From contig JAGVAH010000138.1 of assembly GCA_020060385.1 (NCBI GenBank), forward strand, positions 1-36,865: a stretch of DNA of 36,865 nt, given 5' to 3'. Under the pieces are notes generated by a model. The model was not told the DNA's origin, did no database searches, and saw nothing but the letters and a program-made list of their open reading frames with translations. Each line of letters opens with the position of its first letter. Position 1 is the stretch's first letter. Positions 8,253 to 24,530 of this stretch are shown in pieces. The translations under genes were made by a program, and so were the position numbers. This DNA comes from Syntrophobacterales bacterium. GTDB lineage: Bacteria > Desulfobacterota > Desulfobaccia > Desulfobaccales > 0-14-0-80-60-11.

Positions 8253-8429
8253 GGTGCGAAGACACGGATACGCTAAGACTTACCATGTCCCCAGACAGGA
8301 ATCCGGGCAAGCCCCGCGGCGGCAGCCCGCCGGAACCATTCTCAAATCATTCCCTCTTATTGCCGATATATAAATCATAAAGTGCACCTTACTCCCTTGA
8401 AGTGGAGGCCGTCAGCCCAAAGAGGGTTT

Positions 8430-9848
8430 ATGAACCGGAAATTTTTATTTCTTTGGCTTTTCCTCTGCTGCCTCCCTCTAAAGGCCTGGGCCGCGGTTTA
8501 TGAGGTGGGGCCGGACAAACCCTACCTCAATATCGGCGATGTCCCCTGGGAAAGTATGGCCGCGGGCGATCAGGTGTTGATCTCCTGGCGGCCGGAACCT
8601 TACCGGGAAAAATGGGTCATCGCCGTGCAAGGGACGCAGCAGCAGCCTTTCACGGTGCGGGGAGTGGCCAACGCCAACGGCCAACTTCCCATCATCGACG
8701 GCAACGGCGCCACCACCCGGGATAATCTCAACTTCTGGAACGAGGCCCGGGGGGTCATCAAGATCGGCGGGGCCAATAAACCTGCGGTGGCTATACCCGC
8801 CTGGATCGTGGTGGAAAACCTGGAGATCCGCAGCGGCAGGACGCCATACCAGTTTACCGGACGCAACGGGCTCACCAACTACACAAAGAACGCGGCCGCG
8901 GTGTATGTGGAAAACGGCCAGCAGGTGACCATCAGCAACTGCATCCTCCATGATTCGGGGAATGGCCTCTTTGTGTCCGCGGCCTCCCGGGAGGTCCTCA
9001 TCCAGGGCTGCTGGATCTACGATAACGGCATCGAGTCCAGCATTTATGAGCACAACACCTATACCGCGGCCCTGGGCTTGGTCTATCAGTTCAACTACTT
9101 CGGCCCCCTGCGGGCCGGTTGTTTGGGCAATAACCTGAAAGACCGGTCGGCCGGCTTGGTGGTGCGGTACAACTGGATCGAGGGCGGCAACCGGCAGCTG
9201 GACCTGGTGGATGCCGAGGATAGCGCCACCCTGGTCAATGACCCCAGCTACCGCCAGACCTTCGTGTACGGCAATATCCTTATTGAACCCGCTGGCGCCG
9301 GCAACAGTCAGATGGTCCACTACGGGGGCGACAGCGGCGACACCAGCATCTACCGCAAAGGAACTCTCTACTTCTACAACAACACCATTATTTCCACCCG
9401 CACGGACCATACCACGCTCTTCCGCTTCTCCACCAATGACGAAACGTGTGACTGCCGCAATAACATCATCTGGACGGCTGCTTCCGGGGATAATCTCGCC
9501 CTGGTCAACAGCGCCGGGATGCTGCGCCTCAAGAACAACTGGCTGAAAGCGGGCTGGGTCGCCAGCCATAGCGGCCTCACCGGGACTATTGACAACGGCG
9601 GCGGGAACCTCACCGGGGAGGGCCCGGGATTTGTGGATGCCGCTAATCAGGACTTCCACCTGGGGCGCCAGTCTCCCTGCGTCGACGCCGGGGCCGCCCT
9701 CGATCCCGGGGCCTCTGCCCTGGCCCGCCAGTACGTCAAACACCGCCTCTCTGAACCCCGGCCCGCAGCTGGCCAGCTCGACCTGGGAGCCTTTGAACTG
9801 CGCCAAACCTCCGGGGGAATGCCCTGCCTTTGGCTCCTCTTGGAGTAA
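8430..9848 (+). CDS. Secreted right-handed beta-helix protein
   Basis: The frame is open from 8382, but ATG 8430 is chosen because AGAGGG precedes it and it begins a clean signal peptide (MNRKFLFLWLFLCC..., cleavage after about AWA, residue 21). The mature ~450 residues are rich in Asn, Gly and short beta-strands with repeats of the type VENLEIRSG, VTISNCILHDSG, VLIQGCWIYDNG and LYFYNNTIIS. This is a parallel beta-helix as in pectate lyase-like and NosD-like carbohydrate-binding or lyase proteins. The C-terminal DLGAFEL is common at the end of such proteins. The substrate is not predictable. It is a single gene and is probably exported. Confidence 0.8.
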   Translation: MNRKFLFLWLFLCCLPLKAWAAVYEVGPDKPYLNIGDVPWESMAAGDQVLISWRPEPYREKWVIAVQGTQQQPFTVRGVANANGQLPIIDGNGATTRDNLNFWNEARGVIKIGGANKPAVAIPAWIVVENLEIRSGRTPYQFTGRNGLTNYTKNAAAVYVENGQQVTISNCILHDSGNGLFVSAASREVLIQGCWIYDNGIESSIYEHNTYTAALGLVYQFNYFGPLRAGCLGNNLKDRSAGLVVRYNWIEGGNRQLDLVDAEDSATLVNDPSYRQTFVYGNILIEPAGAGNSQMVHYGGDSGDTSIYRKGTLYFYNNTIISTRTDHTTLFRFSTNDETCDCRNNIIWTAASGDNLALVNSAGMLRLKNNWLKAGWVASHSGLTGTIDNGGGNLTGEGPGFVDAANQDFHLGRQSPCVDAGAALDPGASALARQYVKHRLSEPRPAAGQLDLGAFELRQTSGGMPCLWLLLE

Positions 9849-10343
9849 TGGGGCATTATTAAAATTTCGGATCATATCTTAAGTTGTTACCGCGCCTGCG
9901 ATAATTGCGGGCCATGGCAGTTTTTCCCGTGGGTGGCCTGCGTTTGGCCGCTGCTTCACCCCTCTGGGCCAGTGTCTGGGGGCCGCAGGGACTTTAATAC
10001 CATGTTCGCATTGGAGGGGCGGGTTTTAAACGCGCCTCTACAAGTGATATCAATTTGTTAGCCTGCTGATTTGTTTCATTTCCAAGGGAACATGGTATAA
10101 CTTAAGTTCCGGAAAAAGTTGGCGTCTCCGGAAATTTTGCGATATCTTGTCTTCCACGCGCGAGATCGCCTTGGCAGAGAGGTGGGGTTTGGGATTAAGA
10201 AAAGGCGGGAAAAAGTCTTAACTGATGATTTTGGATGAAAAGGGGTGGAAATGCGGCCTAATCTCGGTCCAGGCCTGAAATCTGCCCGAGAGACTTTTTG
10301 ACTGCACCTTGGTGGTAGATAATTCGGAGTTCCGAGGGAGACG
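9849..10343. other. Non-coding gap holding a MITE-like element
   Basis: Apart from the inverted-repeat element at 9997-10098 and the ribosome site (GAGGGAGA) of the following UspA gene, no gene or clear promoter was found. A minus-strand frame covering 10076-10468 lacks a ribosome site and overlaps the UspA start, so it is not accepted. Confidence 0.5.
9997..10098. mobile_element. MITE-like miniature inverted-repeat element
   Basis: ATACCATGTTC at 9997-10007 is repeated perfectly in inverted form at 10088-10098, and the similarity continues imperfectly beyond and inside the arms (TTGG after the left arm, CCAA before the right). The roughly 100-bp interior is non-coding and includes a GC-rich palindrome near 10015-10042. 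Size and terminal inverted repeats fit a non-autonomous element. No matching transposase is in the window. Confidence 0.45.
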
Positions 10344-17828: not shown

Positions 17829-20800
17829 TTAAAATCCAACGATCCTCTTTTTCCCGTGGGTTTCGATTGTCAACTCTTCAAAAAAAGTTACCGAATCGGC
17901 CTTAGTCCAGAGACCTAAGTAGCCGGTTAACGGCCTCTCGGCGGTGTATTCCAGGAGCAGTTGGTCATCCAGATAACCTTTCAGGGTAATGCCCTTGATC
18001 TCCACGGAGATGAGGTACCACTGATCCTTTTTGATTTCATGCTGCACGGTGGCCCGGGTCAACCGTTTGTTATTGACGTATTCGAAGAGAATGACGTTGT
18101 CTTCCAGGGCATTTATCCGGAGAACGAAGTAGTTGTTGATGTTGCGGATGCCGAAGGCCAGGCCCCCGGCCTGGTCCACGCTGCCGGCTGCGGGCTTGGC
18201 TCGCACCTTGAGAACCGCGTCTCCGACTTCGCTGTCCTTGGCGATGGCCAGGGGGAAATAATAATAGGCCTCGATATTATCCAGGAGTTCCTGATACCTG
18301 GCTCCCATCATCTTGCCCATAAAATTGGCCATTCCCGAGGTGAGGCTGTTGCCATAATCGGAGCCGTCTTGCAAGAGGAGAACGCGCCCCACCTCCTGGA
18401 CTCGCTTCCAGTTGCCGGTGTGGGTGTAAAACCCGGGTATCCTGATCTCCTGGGCCCGATTAAGAAAATCATAGTCGCCGGCAAAAAACGCCTCGATTAT
18501 CCGGGTCATTTCGGCTTCGTTGCCGATGGCCATATCCAGCAGGCGGCTGGAGGCCAGCAACCGCCCCACCTGGTCCAAGGTATTCTCCATGGAGCTGCGG
18601 TCGAGGCCGGTCAGGGAGGCTTCCAGGAGATCCCCCGTAAGGTTGATTTTGAAGTTGAGCATGAACAGGACATTGCCTAAGAAGGTGAGGCGCAGGGACT
18701 TCCCATAGTAGGTGCCCGCGCCCCCTGCAAATTGCAGGGAGATGTAGTTCTGGTCGGGAATGTCGCTTAAAAAGGCATCCAGGTTGGCAAAGTGGTAGCC
18801 GAACTTGGCGCTCAGGTTCACGTACTCTCTGGAAAGAATGGCGTAACTGTCTCCTCCCGGCAGATTCTCAGGTCCCGTCATGACCCCCCGGGCCATGAGT
18901 TGCATAAAATTTCCGGCATCCACGGCTACACTGCCCTTCCAGGTGATGCCGGGATGACAGAAGCCCTTCCACAAGGAGCGCATGGGGATAGACTCCAGGT
19001 GATCCCGGGTGACTTCGTCACAGGTGGTAAGCCCTGGCCTCAGCCCTCCCCCCAGGTCAACGAGGTGCAATACCAGGGGAATGTCGGTGGTCAGTTTAAC
19101 GGAGATAACACCCTCAACTCCCTCTCCGGAAAGCCCGAACATCTCTCTGACCACCTTCTCATGTGCGAACCGGATGACGTCGTGGACGGTTTGGCACCCT
19201 GAAGGCGCGAAAGATGGGTCCTGCGGGTCAGTGAGGTTCAGGGGCGCCACCTTATCCAAGAAGGCCCGCATCCGCCGGTGCAGGGGGCTGTCGAACAGGT
19301 GCCTTTTTATCGGCTTGGCCGCAGCCGCGAGTTCCGGGACGATCTCCTGATAAACGGTAGCCCGGTCTGCCACTAAGGTGATGGGCTCCCCCTCGGACAA
19401 CCGGGTCGTGGCCAGTCCGGTATCGAACAGGGCCGGCACGCCGAACTCCCGGGCCACGGATGCCAGATGGCTGGTGACGCTGCCGATGTCGGTGATGATT
19501 CCCTTAATTTTTCCCATGAGGCGGGCGTGATCGGGGGAGGCGGTGCGGGCCACCAGAATGGCGTCCTCCGGCAGGGGACGGGATGGGTCACCCCCGGCCA
19601 GATGGACCCGGCCCACCGCGATGCCGGGGGAAGCGGCCTGACCTCCGGAGACCAGGAGGGGGTGATCTGGGAAGTCCTGGGGCAGCGCCTCCGCTTCGGG
19701 TTTGCCCTGGATCAGCCCCAGGGGCCGGGATTGGAGAAAATAGAGCTTCCCCTGTTGGTCTACGGCCCACTCCACATCCTGGGGGCCCTGGTAGTATTCC
19801 TCCAGCCGCAGGCCATACCGGGCCAGGGCCAGTACCGTGTCGTCGTCCAGGGATGGGAGTTCCTGCTCCCCGGCCAGCACTGCTTCCAGACGGGTGCCGC
19901 CTTCCTTCAGATTAACCAGGCGTTCCGTTTTCTTGCCGATGACCCGTTGCCCAATGGTCACGGTGGCCTTGTCCACGTAAAATTCATCAGCCGCGGCTTC
20001 GCCGCTCACTAGGAGCTCCCCAAGGCCCCAGACGGAGTTGATCTTCAGGAGGTTGGAGTCCGGACGGGATGGGTCCACGGTATAGAGGACACCGCTGGCC
20101 CGGGAGTCAACCATGACGATCCCGGCCACGCACATCTGCGTGTCCCGGTCCTCTAAACCATAGCGCAACCGGTAGGAAATGGCTCGGGGAGCATACTTGC
20201 TGGCCACCACCAACTTATAGGCTTCCAGGAGGTTGTCTTGGGTAACGTTCAACTCGGTGGCATATTGCCCGGCGAAGGAGGCCTCCGTGTCTTCCCCTAC
20301 CGCGCTGCTGCGCATGGCCAGGCGCACGCCGGGGTGCGTTTTCGCTTCCAGTTCCCGGTAGGCCTGGGAGATTTCCGCGGCCAAGCCGGTGGGGACCTGG
20401 GCCTGAATGATCAGGTCCCGAATGGCCTGGCTCTTTTCTTCCAGGTCTTCCAGGTTGTCGGGGGAAAGCCCCGCCAATAGCTCTGCTATGGTTTTGGCCA
20501 GACCGGTTTCCTGGAGAAAAAGCTCTAGGGCCCCCGCAGTAACCACGAACCCCGGGGGGATGGGCGCATCCAGATATTTATGGATGAGGGCCAGATTGGT
20601 GGCCTTGCTGCCGGCGACGGTCACCTGGTCGGGGCCCAGGGTCTCCAGGGGCAGCACCAGTTCCCCCCCCGGCGGGGGAGGCGCGGCAGCAAATATCGGC
20701 TCAATTTCCCGGTCGATGCGGTCCGATACCCGGGAAAGTTCTTCGTACTTCCCCGGAGCCAATCCGTTCAATGCCTTTACCAGGTTGTCCGTAGCCGCCG

Positions 20801-21008
20801 CGAGCTGGCGGTATTGCTTCTCCACCCCGGCCATGGTGAAGGGGCCGCTCCCGTAATAGAGCTGCTCCAACTCCGAGATGATCCCCAGTGCGGCCCGGTT
20901 GTTGGCGAGAAAGTCCATGAAATGGTTGTATTTCTTCGCAATCACCCCTTCATCGGTGATCAGAAAGTGGCAGACTTGCTTTCTCGAAAACAGATCCCGG
21001 ATGCCCAT
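17829..21008 (-). CDS. PEP-synthase/PPDK-like phosphotransferase with novel C-terminus and lectin-like domain
   Basis: 1059 residues. After a helical N-terminus (1-110), residues ~125-430 are the ATP-grasp-like PEP/pyruvate-binding domain (GSKATNLALI at 133-142, RSSAVGED at 233-240, a DVEWAVD...LYFLQSRP end at 411-429). Residues ~450-560 are the swivelling phosphohistidine domain, with His514 in GSVTSHLASVAREFGVPA. The usual PEP/pyruvate TIM barrel is absent. Residues ~575-905 are an unassigned region (VKLTTDIPLVLHLVDLGGGL near 638-656), and ~915-1050 are beta-rich and read as a concanavalin/LamG- or DUF1080-like sandwich (YFVLRINALEDNVILFEYVN; WYLISVEIKG; GYLGLWTKA). It can probably autophosphorylate from ATP, but the acceptor is unknown. 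It follows marC by 25 nt on the same strand. Confidence 0.85.
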   Translation of the reverse strand: MGIRDLFSRKQVCHFLITDEGVIAKKYNHFMDFLANNRAALGIISELEQLYYGSGPFTMAGVEKQYRQLAAATDNLVKALNGLAPGKYEELSRVSDRIDREIEPIFAAAPPPPGGELVLPLETLGPDQVTVAGSKATNLALIHKYLDAPIPPGFVVTAGALELFLQETGLAKTIAELLAGLSPDNLEDLEEKSQAIRDLIIQAQVPTGLAAEISQAYRELEAKTHPGVRLAMRSSAVGEDTEASFAGQYATELNVTQDNLLEAYKLVVASKYAPRAISYRLRYGLEDRDTQMCVAGIVMVDSRASGVLYTVDPSRPDSNLLKINSVWGLGELLVSGEAAADEFYVDKATVTIGQRVIGKKTERLVNLKEGGTRLEAVLAGEQELPSLDDDTVLALARYGLRLEEYYQGPQDVEWAVDQQGKLYFLQSRPLGLIQGKPEAEALPQDFPDHPLLVSGGQAASPGIAVGRVHLAGGDPSRPLPEDAILVARTASPDHARLMGKIKGIITDIGSVTSHLASVAREFGVPALFDTGLATTRLSEGEPITLVADRATVYQEIVPELAAAAKPIKRHLFDSPLHRRMRAFLDKVAPLNLTDPQDPSFAPSGCQTVHDVIRFAHEKVVREMFGLSGEGVEGVISVKLTTDIPLVLHLVDLGGGLRPGLTTCDEVTRDHLESIPMRSLWKGFCHPGITWKGSVAVDAGNFMQLMARGVMTGPENLPGGDSYAILSREYVNLSAKFGYHFANLDAFLSDIPDQNYISLQFAGGAGTYYGKSLRLTFLGNVLFMLNFKINLTGDLLEASLTGLDRSSMENTLDQVGRLLASSRLLDMAIGNEAEMTRIIEAFFAGDYDFLNRAQEIRIPGFYTHTGNWKRVQEVGRVLLLQDGSDYGNSLTSGMANFMGKMMGARYQELLDNIEAYYYFPLAIAKDSEVGDAVLKVRAKPAAGSVDQAGGLAFGIRNINNYFVLRINALEDNVILFEYVNNKRLTRATVQHEIKKDQWYLISVEIKGITLKGYLDDQLLLEYTAERPLTGYLGLWTKADSVTFFEELTIETHGKKRIVGF

Positions 21009-21033: not shown

Positions 21034-21684
21034 TTAATTCCAGCCCGGGAAGGCCGTGCGCAGCCCCTGGATGACGAATTCCACCGCCAAAGCCGCCAGG
21101 ATCAGGCCCATGATGCGGGTCAGCAGCCGCAGGCCACTTTCCTTCAGATGGCTGAGAAGCTGCTCGGCAAACCTGAAGACCACATAGGTCAAGAACATGA
21201 TGAGACCCAGGGCCAGCACCAGGAGCCCGTCTTCCAGGGGGGAGTGGGAGCGGCTGGTGAGCACCAGGATGGTGGAGATGGCTCCGGGACCGGCCAGCAA
21301 GGGCATGGTCATGGGCACCAGGGCGATATCCCGGTAGTCGGTAGCTACCAGGCTGGAGGAGGTGTCCAGGCGGTTGAAATGTCCCCGGCCTTCCAGCATG
21401 TCAAAGGCGATGCGGAAGAGGATGAGGCCCCCGGCGATTTGAAAGGCCGGCAGGCTGATGCCGAAAAAGTTGAGGAAGACCCGGCCGACGAAAATGAAGA
21501 GGCTCAGGATCAAAAAGGCATAGAGGCAGGCATGCCGGGCCAGTTTGCGCCGCTCCGGGGGCGCCGCGGCCTGGGACAGGGCCAGGTATGGAAAGACATT
21601 GCCCGAGGGATCGATGATGACGAAGAGGGAGATCAGGGCAGTGATCAAAAAGGAGATGGCAGACCCGGAAAATCCCGTGAACAT
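21034..21684 (-). CDS. MarC-family integral membrane protein
   Basis: The frame is open from 21870, but ATG 21684 starts directly at the first membrane helix and has GGAGG upstream, with long spacing. The 216-residue protein has about six hydrophobic segments (ISFLITALISLFVIIDP, ACLYAFLILSLFIFVG, LPAFQIAGGLILFRIAF, and others) and the family-typical sequence ALVPMTMPLLAGPGAIST. MarC/UPF0056 proteins sit in the inner membrane; a role in amino acid or small-molecule export was proposed but is not settled. A TATAAT box on the minus strand (21754-21759) lies in the divergent gap. The PEP-synthase-like gene is next in the same direction. Confidence 0.88.
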   Translation of the reverse strand: MFTGFSGSAISFLITALISLFVIIDPSGNVFPYLALSQAAAPPERRKLARHACLYAFLILSLFIFVGRVFLNFFGISLPAFQIAGGLILFRIAFDMLEGRGHFNRLDTSSSLVATDYRDIALVPMTMPLLAGPGAISTILVLTSRSHSPLEDGLLVLALGLIMFLTYVVFRFAEQLLSHLKESGLRLLTRIMGLILAALAVEFVIQGLRTAFPGWN

Positions 21685-21781
21685 AATGGCAAAATAAGGA
21701 CCTCCAGGGAAAAGGTCAAGGGCGTTGCCGTCAGGGAGCAGATAGGAGCATATATTATATACAATTTTAGTAGGATATAGC

Positions 21782-21811
21782 TTGACAGGCGCCGCATCTT
21801 TCTGAGATAAT
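21782..21811 (+). promoter_or_regulatory. Near-consensus sigma-70 promoter of the homocysteine operon
   Basis: A perfect TTGACA (21782-21787) and GATAAT (21806-21811) with 18 bp between them point toward the NIL-ferredoxin gene. The transcript would start near 21818, leaving a leader of about 115 nt. It is the best-matched promoter in the window. Confidence 0.7.
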
Positions 21812-21828
21812 TGCCGTAAGATGGGGGG

Positions 21829-21906
21829 CCGGAGGGAGGACTCTCCGGCCGCGGCGCCGGGAGAAAACAAGAGCGACCTGACGGGCCGCTCTTATTTGGT
21901 TTCTCC
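21829..21906 (+). promoter_or_regulatory. Two-hairpin mRNA leader before the homocysteine operon
   Basis: Hairpin 1: CCGGAG 21829-21834 with 21843-21848. Hairpin 2: a composite stem with outer arms 21860-21868/21899-21906 and inner arms AAGAGCG 21869-21875/21887-21893, tetraloop-like TGAC, and an unpaired ATTTG on the 3' side. The inner hairpin followed by ATTTGGTTT looks like a weak terminator, so attenuation is possible. It does not match the SAM-I, SAM-II or SAH riboswitch patterns that I know. Confidence 0.45.
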
Positions 21907-22443: not shown

Positions 22444-23652
22444 ATGGCCAACTACCAGGTAAATAAAACTTACCAGGAAATTAATGAAAAGATCAAAAAA
22501 GGCCAGGCAGTGGTGGTCACCGCCGAAGAGATCATCGACATCGTGCGCCGCAAAGGGGAAGCGGAGGCGGCCCGCACGGTGGACGTGGTCACCACCGGCA
22601 CCTTTTCCCCCATGTGCTCCTCGGGCGCGATCCTCAATTTCGGCCATACCAAGCCGCCCATCAAGGCCTCCCGGGTGTGGCTCAACAACGTTCCGGCGTA
22701 CGCCGGCCTGGCCGCGGTGGACGTCTATCTGGGGGCCACCGAACCGGCTGGGGACGATCCCCTGAACAAGGTGTACCCGGGGGAGTTTAAATACGGCGGC
22801 GGCCATGTGATTCAGGACCTGGTGGCCGGGAAGGCCGTCCACCTGGTGGCGGAGGCCTATGGCACCGACTGCTACCCCAACAAACGGGTGGAGAAAGACG
22901 TCACCTTAGGGCAGTTGCCCAACGCGGTGCTCTTCAACCCCCGCAACTGCTACCAGAACTATAACTGTGCGGTCAACCTCTCCAACCGCACCATTTATAC
23001 CTATATGGGGCCTCTCAGGCCCCGGGCCGGGAACGCCAATTTTTGTACCGCCGGCCAGCTCAGCCCCCTGTTCAATGATCCCTATTACCGCACCATCGGC
23101 ATCGGCACCCGCATCTTCCTGGGGGGCGGGGTGGGATACGTCTGCTTTCCCGGCACCCAGCACAATCCCGGCAAACCCCGGGGGGAAAACGGCATCCCTT
23201 TAGGCCCCGCGGGCACCCTGATGGTCATGGGGGATCTGCAAAAGATGAGCGCCCGTTACCTGGTGGGCGTCAGCCTCTTGGGCTATGGCTGCTCCCTGAC
23301 CGTGGGCCTGGGCATCCCCATTCCTCTGCTCAACGAAGAAATCGCCCACTTTTGCGCGGTGACGGACGATCAGCTCCTGGCCCCGGTGGTGGACTACGGC
23401 CACGACTACCCGGAGGCCACCGGCCGCATCCTGGGCCACGTCACTTACACCCAGCTAAAAAGCGGCAAGATGGACCTGGACGGCCAGGAAGTCCTTACCG
23501 TCCCCCTCTCCAGCCTGGTCAGGGCCCGGGAAGTGGCCCAACTTCTGAAGGAATGGATACAGAAAGGCCAGTTCCTCCTGGGAGAACCCGTGGAACTGCT
23601 CCCCGGCAGCGACGCAATCCACTGCGTGCCCACGGCCAGCCGGGATAGTTGA
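22444..23652 (+). CDS. Aspartate-semialdehyde sulfurtransferase (HcyBio/DUF39)
   Basis: 402 residues of the homocysteine biosynthesis (DUF39) family. It condenses L-aspartate semialdehyde with sulfide to give homocysteine, bypassing O-acyl-homoserine. Cys58 in TFSPMCSSGAILNFGH corresponds to the essential Cys near residue 54 of the methanogen enzyme. Other family segments are IKASRVWLNNVPAYAGLAAVD, PRNCYQNYNCAVNLSNRTIYT and LGGGVGYVCFPGTQHNPG. It follows the NIL-ferredoxin gene by 87 nt and would share its promoter and leader. This route suits an anaerobe living at high sulfide. Confidence 0.9.
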   Translation: MANYQVNKTYQEINEKIKKGQAVVVTAEEIIDIVRRKGEAEAARTVDVVTTGTFSPMCSSGAILNFGHTKPPIKASRVWLNNVPAYAGLAAVDVYLGATEPAGDDPLNKVYPGEFKYGGGHVIQDLVAGKAVHLVAEAYGTDCYPNKRVEKDVTLGQLPNAVLFNPRNCYQNYNCAVNLSNRTIYTYMGPLRPRAGNANFCTAGQLSPLFNDPYYRTIGIGTRIFLGGGVGYVCFPGTQHNPGKPRGENGIPLGPAGTLMVMGDLQKMSARYLVGVSLLGYGCSLTVGLGIPIPLLNEEIAHFCAVTDDQLLAPVVDYGHDYPEATGRILGHVTYTQLKSGKMDLDGQEVLTVPLSSLVRAREVAQLLKEWIQKGQFLLGEPVELLPGSDAIHCVPTASRDS

Positions 23653-23658
23653 AGGGAC

Positions 23659-23711
23659 AGTGGTCAGTTTTTGGTTTTTGGTAAAAATTCTCTTTTCCAA
23701 TACTGACTACT
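23659..23711. repeat. Short inverted repeat, AGTGGTCAGT family
   Basis: AGTGGTCAGT at 23659-23668 pairs with ACTGACTACT at 23702-23711 with one mismatch. It lies between the homocysteine gene and the LarE-like gene and resembles the repeats at 15259 and 36605. Confidence 0.5.
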
Positions 23712-23756
23712 GATTACTTGCGAATATGTCTGACTGTCTGGGATCATCCCCACTAC

Positions 23757-24530
23757 ATGGAAGATACCCTCATCACTGACCTAACCACCCTCCTCCGGGG
23801 CCGCTCCCGGGCCTTGCTGCTCTTCTCCGGGGGGCTCGACTCCAGCCTGCTGTTGGCGGCCGCGGCCCCGGTCCTGGGGCCGGGCCTGGTGGCTCTCACC
23901 TTTACCGGGCCCCAGACCGTGCCCGGGGAATTGGCCGGGGCCTTCGCCCTGGCCCGGCACCTCCGGGTGCGGCACCTAATCAGGGAGACAAATCCTTTCT
24001 CCCTCCCCGATTTTCGGCACAACACCCGATTACGGTGCTATGCCTGCAAAAAGGCCCTCATCGAACAGGCCTGGGAGATAGCCGCGGACTTGGGGATTGA
24101 GGAAGTCTGGGACGGCACCAATGTGGACGACCTGGCGGACTTCCGCCCCGGCCTCCAGGCCGCCCGGGAGTTGGGGGTACAAAGTCCCCTGTTGGAGGCG
24201 GGTATGGGGAAAGCGGCCATCCGGCACTTAAGCCGGCAACTGGGCCTGCCCGGGGATAAGTCCCCCCAAAGCTGCCTGGCCACTCGCTTTCCATATGATA
24301 CCCTTTTAACAATAGAAGCCCTGGCCCGGGTGGGCCGGGCCGAGTCCTGGCTGCGCCGCTGGGGCTTCACTTATGTGCGTCTGCGGATCCGGGGGGACCA
24401 GGCCCGCCTGGAACTGGCCCCCGGGGAATGGCCCGCATTTCTGGCCCCGGAGGCGCGCGGGCCGTTTACCGCGCTGGTGGCCGGGCTGGGATGGGAGTTG
24501 GATTTGGATGTTTCTGGGGGAGGGGGCTAA
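23757..24530 (+). CDS. larE: LarE-type ATP-dependent sulfur transferase
   Basis: Start uncertain: TTG at 23718 keeps the frame open, but ATG 23757 (MEDTLITDLTTLL) is more likely; neither has a strong ribosome site. Counting from 23757, the PP-loop is LLFSGGLDSSLL with the SGGLDSS at about 24-30, a RCYACKK pair follows near 93-99, and SCLATRFPY near 172-180 holds the Cys that in LarE is sacrificed to donate sulfur to the nickel-pincer cofactor precursor. No larB or larC is in this window, so the acceptor may differ. It ends 5 nt before the arsenate-reductase gene, implying co-translation. Confidence 0.8.
   Translation: MEDTLITDLTTLLRGRSRALLLFSGGLDSSLLLAAAAPVLGPGLVALTFTGPQTVPGELAGAFALARHLRVRHLIRETNPFSLPDFRHNTRLRCYACKKALIEQAWEIAADLGIEEVWDGTNVDDLADFRPGLQAARELGVQSPLLEAGMGKAAIRHLSRQLGLPGDKSPQSCLATRFPYDTLLTIEALARVGRAESWLRRWGFTYVRLRIRGDQARLELAPGEWPAFLAPEARGPFTALVAGLGWELDLDVSGGGG

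Follow-up and report, generated by a model that had tools for sequence, protein, structure and literature searches.

A PEP-synthase-like protein with a new C-terminal domain in place of the PEP barrel, a CBM66-like tail and a possible link to oxyanion transport

What is the function of a protein that shares the ATP-driven engine of PEP synthase but lacks the part that makes PEP? The question is raised by an open reading frame at positions 17829..21008 (minus strand, as are all parts of the gene given below) of the window, a 36,865-nucleotide stretch that forms one entire contig of a 175-contig, 4.15 Mb draft genome. From its ATG start the frame encodes 1059 residues, comprising a helical N-domain, an ATP-grasp domain (PPDK_N), a phospho-His domain, a new C-domain and a CBM66-like tail. 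Because orthologues (57–90% identity, several of them full-length) occur in other genomes, including records named Deltaproteobacteria or Desulfobacca, the frame is neither a chimera nor a chance ORF. The protein lacks both a signal segment and a membrane segment (top 19-residue hydropathy 1.4), and a Pfam scan of its full length finds nothing above the curated cut-off beyond residue 548. PADLOC defence models gave no match, plasmids yielded none, and no relatives were found among viral contigs.

A dikinase engine joined to a new C-domain

The first half of the protein contains the same ATP-grasp and phospho-His domains as PEP synthase (pyruvate, water dikinase), in the same order. The PPDK_N domain spans residues 131-434 (19707..20618; Pfam E 2.4e-85) and is followed by the swivelling PEP-utilizers domain (residues 480-548, 19365..19571; Pfam E 2.9e-18, with matches in the PDB), which carries the predicted phosphate carrier His514 (codon 19467..19469), a position occupied by His in 75 of the 77 kinase-type relatives. 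The ATP-site residues K135, R233, E239, E413, Q426 and R428, together with His514, are each kept in at least 74 of these 77 relatives, and the RSSAVGED motif is present, in agreement with the first-pass annotation, which had noted that both domains look functional. Conservation in sequence thus strongly indicates that the protein binds ATP, and phosphorylation of His514 is predicted from conservation together with the chemistry of the family (PMC12167813, PMC4844700). The domains are preceded by a probably helical N-terminal domain (residues 1-116, 20661..21008) that was delimited from family-wide alignments and is common to the whole family. This domain found no convincing match in the PDB; the hits returned were mostly designed helical bundles and spectrin-like helices, which we put down to composition.

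Beyond the phospho-His domain the likeness to PEP synthase ends. The PEP-synthase model TIGR01418 aligns to residues 117-556 only (E 6e-100) and scores 335.7 bits, less than half of its cut-off of 739.75, and the NCBIfam PEP-synthase models in general are confined to the same residues with scores far under cut-off. The PEP-utilizers_C barrel (PF02896) has no Pfam match in the protein, so that the PEP/pyruvate TIM barrel is missing, as had been proposed from the first reading. In its place lies a new domain of ~280 residues (residues 572-850, 18459..19295), here called the C-domain. The first-pass annotation had seen in this part of the protein a middle region of ~330 residues that could not be assigned; an uncharacterised domain is indeed there, with the corrections that its length is ~280 residues and that it is family-wide. 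Six shorter paralogues of the same genome align from ~21 to ~848 of the window protein, and the region after the His domain therefore belongs to a family. A search suggested earlier for this domain across genomes, carried out here on 247 genomes, all Desulfobacterota, finds it in 89, and since the best E value is below 1e-68 in every one of the 89 the family is sharply bounded.

The C-domain resembles nothing in the libraries searched. Twenty-eight members compared with Pfam gave no family and scattered weak matches only, and a profile of the domain gave nothing credible against the PDB; its best match there (E 0.05) consisted of short, unrelated alignments and was discarded. A model of residues 560-1059 built from six sequences was uninterpretable (pLDDT 43). 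The possibility that the middle region is a diverged TIM barrel, which the first reading had named as the case that would overturn it, was examined by profile-profile comparison (hhalign) with PEP-utilizers_C barrels from the same and related genomes, which returned probabilities of 0.1–0.5% and leaves the barrel reading unsupported. That the protein is a PEP synthase or PPDK with a barrel diverged beyond recognition, as its PEP-synthase-like N-terminal half might suggest, is accordingly highly improbable, the more so as a complete PPDK (957 aa) is encoded in the same genome. Besides this PPDK the genome has just one other PF02896 barrel, in a protein of 619 aa, a length that would suit PTS enzyme I.

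Within the C-domain the most conserved segment is the motif C-x-T-x-H-D-[IV]-x-R-F-A-H-E (residues 605-617, 19158..19196), in which D610 and H616 are present in 77 of 77 kinase-type relatives and H609, R613 and E617 in 76 of 77. These five residues and H739, G762, G763 and R773 are near-invariant in the domain. From conservation alone, the motif is a candidate acceptor or substrate site.

Exchange of the acceptor domain on a dikinase engine is already known from rifampin phosphotransferase (RPH), phenylphosphate synthase and HpeHI. In RPH, HpeHI and PpsAB the chemistry of ATP and swivelling His is the same and the acceptor domain has been exchanged (PMC12167813, PMC4844700). The comparison with rifampin phosphotransferase drawn in the first-pass annotation holds in principle, but not in the order of the domains: RPH runs ATP, rifampin-binding, His, whereas the window protein runs ATP, His, new domain. 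The rifampin phosphotransferase model NF041857 scores 233 bits against a cut-off of 999. A metabolic small-molecule dikinase of this kind, in which ATP would phosphorylate His514 and the phosphate would pass to a metabolite held in the C-domain, is possible but on the doubtful side. The engine and His chemistry are shared with the characterised acceptor-swapped dikinases (PMC12167813), and the near-invariant polar motif resembles an active site; however, the C-domain shows no detectable similarity to the acceptor domains of RPH and the small-molecule dikinases, and two further lines of evidence, from the composition of the family and from its gene neighbourhoods, speak against this reading below. 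In the papers and libraries searched, and leaving the genetics of a Desulfovibrio cluster aside, there seems to be no description of this acceptor-side domain, of its spread among paralogues that have defective and kinase-less partners, or of the neighbourhoods with transport genes.

Paralogues, pseudokinases and a kinase-less member

The family is defined by the N-helical domain, PPDK_N, PEP-utilizers and a C-domain with the HDxxRxxHE motif, all of which the window protein has. Its own genome encodes six shorter relatives (~810-880 aa) with the ATP, His and new domains and one kinase-less copy, and in these bacteria as many as a dozen or so genes in one genome have the PEP-synthase-like first half with the PEP-making part missing; recognition of the shared C-domain corrects the reading of such genes as PEP synthases. 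The large number of paralogues per genome would be in keeping with a set of small-molecule dikinases.

Members that have lost the kinase point in another direction. The kinase-less paralogue of the window's genome (404 aa; L033:15601-16815, plus strand) runs straight from the N-terminal helical domain into the C-domain and has R in place of H609; its gene is followed by one for a universal stress protein. Two related members (L196:5963-13395 and L195:5890-8637) have lost K135, E413, Q426 and the phospho-His together while retaining the C-domain motif, and at the first of these loci the gene order is defective copy, histidine kinase, receiver protein, intact paralogue. The existence of a protein made of N-domain and C-domain without a kinase indicates a separate role for the C-domain, and its retention where no kinase is present in cis is most easily read as that of an acceptor, sensor or interaction domain. 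Retention in kinase-dead and kinase-less members argues against a small-molecule dikinase. In a further member the family sequence lies within an 1833-aa frame (L202:7757-13258) whose ~960 N-terminal residues have no Pfam match, and which may be a fusion or an over-extended frame.

A CBM66-like tail confined to one clade

The window protein differs from most of its relatives by a C-terminal tail (residues 852-1059, 17832..18455) found in one clade of the family only. In a tree of 66 sequences the tailed members form one side of a branch with SH-aLRT 100 (18 of 66 rows), from an alignment in which columns filled in fewer than 30% of rows were dropped, so that the tail itself (18/66 rows) was excluded. 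The concanavalin-like sandwich anticipated in the first reading was recovered by two routes. The CBM66 of Bacillus subtilis levanase (4azz, 4b1m) is the best match of the tail both by profile (E 8e-4) and by structure: when the tail was modelled alone (pLDDT 61, pTM 0.64), CBM66 occupied Foldseek ranks 1-5 (E 1.2e-6) and aligned by VIA with Z 12.3 over 133 residues at 3.3 Å. The model, of modest confidence, thus has a CBM66 beta-sandwich fold. The match to the levanase module is one of fold, at 22% identity and with incomplete coverage, and the tail is fused to a protein that lacks a signal peptide.

The tail domain also occurs in separate proteins of 269-285 aa that begin with a hydrophobic segment and are probably exported. 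Their genes adjoin an ABC-2 permease gene on two contigs (L113 and L116). On the second of these a single run (L116:133-6957) comprises ChrB, MFS, a GldF-like ABC-2 permease, the separate CBM66-like protein and the start of a dikinase-family gene, so that the separate tail gene immediately precedes the beginning of a family member, inside the ChrB/MFS group. Because separate proteins with the same domain exist, one of them encoded directly upstream of a family member, the tail has the appearance of a later addition, a module acquired through fusion with a neighbouring gene, and it is therefore no proof of a glycan acceptor. Its most likely role is that of a binding module for a partner rather than a phosphate acceptor.

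These observations bear on whether the substrate is a carbohydrate. Glucan, water dikinase combines the dikinase engine with carbohydrate-binding-type modules and phosphorylates starch, and by analogy the CBM66-like tail could dock on a polysaccharide that would then be phosphorylated from pHis514. The window protein differs from that enzyme in having no starch context and in the family and order of its modules. A dual-specificity phosphatase gene (356-363 aa) that is convergent with the tailed dikinase gene and overlaps its end (L103:9563-10633 and L104:2140-3231) would also suit a glycan dikinase; it was rejected as a general partner because it was found beside the gene in no more than two genomes, both of the same family. 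With the tail confined to one clade, most C-domain relatives without it, no conserved glycan genes nearby, and separate tail proteins that look exported while the window protein has neither signal nor membrane segment, we regard a glycan dikinase as quite unlikely. The carbohydrate acceptor floated in the first-pass annotation finds no specific support on the same grounds, and the neighbourhoods of the relatives point instead to two-component signalling and oxyanion permeases.

Gene neighbourhoods and a possible role in oxyanion transport

The short and the tailed members have different neighbours. Within 8 kb of 49 short members a single receiver protein is encoded at 41, a TauE permease at 34 and a histidine kinase at 33, against 1, 0 and 2 respectively for 19 tailed members (Fisher p 2e-9 for the receiver, 1e-7 for TauE and 3e-5 for the histidine kinase); no tailed member stands beside TauE, and receivers or kinases rarely adjoin them. 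Several of the histidine kinases near short members carry Cache sensors, and genes for Alph_Pro_TM, CBS, DASS and universal stress proteins recur there. The TauE, histidine kinase and receiver neighbours are also found at short copies in the window's own genome, and one C-domain member (on L201) lies near a 312-aa TauE and itself adjoins a 124-aa receiver. At several loci the genes for the TauE permease and the short dikinase are separated by one for a ~230-aa protein without a Pfam or NCBIfam match (L132:11946-12632 and like genes). That the neighbours serve signalling and transport, and not catabolism, again argues against a small-molecule dikinase.

A similar arrangement has been studied genetically in Desulfovibrio. 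The cluster DVU0251-0245 encodes TauE, a periplasmic PtxB-like protein, a histidine kinase, a receiver, a PPDK_N/PEP-utilizers protein (DVU0246) and a phosphatase (PMC4001038); the last, DVU0245, lies beside DVU0246 and is likewise annotated as a dual-specificity phosphatase. Transposon mutants in DVU0246, DVU0247 (receiver), DVU0250 and DVU0251 (TauE) grew equally with and without 100 mM nitrate, and the authors proposed that nitrate enters via a leaky thiosulfate transporter (PMC4001038). DVU0246 and Dde_0604 resemble the short relatives in having PPDK_N and PEP-utilizers domains and TauE, histidine kinase and single receiver neighbours (PMC4001038). DVU0246, with 744 aa against ~860 in the short relatives, is a probable relative of these, the likeness being one of annotated domains and neighbours; the window protein differs from it by its tail and its other neighbours. 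Literature searches on DVU0246 gave nothing further of use beyond this one genetic paper.

In the tailed clade the recurrent transport genes are of the chromate type. In 4 of 20 genomes (three families) a tailed member has ChrA (PF02417) at a distance of no more than about 2.1 kb, where random placement would give 0.024 (Poisson P about 1e-8, a figure that ignores shared ancestry). ChrA adjoins the tailed member in G073, G165 and G027, and a ChrA fragment is present in G187. A frame-broken orthologue 90% identical to the window protein (on L013) is preceded by ChrB, ChrA, DUF2148 and MFS genes, the MFS gene ~20 bp away, and two of the chr-linked tailed loci also have multihaem cytochrome-like genes. 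The chromate link concerns a minority of tailed loci and is missing at the window locus. Because several early-branching tailed members are linked, it may be ancestral in the clade and have been lost at the window locus. A literature search on the chromate link found nothing of use.

The neighbours of the relatives, among them sulfate-, nitrate- and chromate-type transporters, together with the Desulfovibrio genetics of a probable relative, suggest that the window protein probably uses ATP to control or assist oxyanion transport rather than to make PEP. ATP would phosphorylate His514, leaving AMP and Pi or PPi, and the swivelling domain would carry the phosphate to the C-domain around H609-D610-R613-H616-E617, or to something bound there, a transfer suggested by the position and conservation of the domain and by the kinase-less members. 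The resulting phosphorylation state would set the activity of an oxyanion permease, of the TauE/DASS type and under histidine kinase/receiver control for the short relatives and of the chromate transporter type for the tailed clade. Taken whole, this account of a PEP-synthase-derived, dikinase-like phosphotransfer protein serving oxyanion transport is tentative, and we place it somewhat short of an even chance; a point against it is that the characterised acceptor-swapped dikinases of this kind are small-molecule enzymes and not regulators.

The ChrA, ChrB and MFS genes adjoining tailed members, and the multihaem cytochrome-like genes at two loci, would also suit an accessory enzyme of chromate or metal stress, which might for example phosphorylate a damaged or complexed product and exert no control over a permease. 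This is unlikely, given that the link is found in a minority of tailed loci, the window's excluded, and that tail-less relatives are linked to other oxyanion permeases, for which reason a common transport theme is favoured.

A role in oxyanion transport would give the dikinase engine a new use, one connected with transport of the sulfate, thiosulfate and chromate types, and the C-domain family offers a testable reason for the control of nitrate sensitivity by the cryptic Desulfovibrio cluster, with relevance to the control of oil-field souring. Whether the family extends to a hitherto undescribed class of phosphotransfer regulators in sulfate-reducing bacteria, namely PEP-synthase-derived, ATP-driven phospho-His proteins that switch oxyanion permeases under two-component control and share the C-domain with kinase-dead and kinase-less partners, is doubtful on present evidence; if it did, the class would amount to a branch of control comparable to the PTS but driven by ATP in place of PEP.

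The window copy itself has no TauE/DASS/chromate-type permease, receiver or histidine kinase beside it. A gene for a MarC-family membrane protein (21034..21870, minus strand; Pfam MarC E 1.1e-55) ends 25 bases upstream of the dikinase gene; it was rejected as an operon partner because the adjacency is not conserved in ten orthologous loci, and MarC is probably not part of the system. Since none of the window's neighbours was found in these ten loci, the local context gives no safe clue. Elsewhere in the window two long opposite-strand frames (488 and 465 aa) overlap almost completely at 8382-9875, of which only the plus frame has a weak DUF5123 match, under cut-off. At 22444-24530 a gene of the homocysteine-biosynthesis enzyme family (HcyBio, PF01837) is followed by a gene for a LarE-type sacrificial sulfur transferase.
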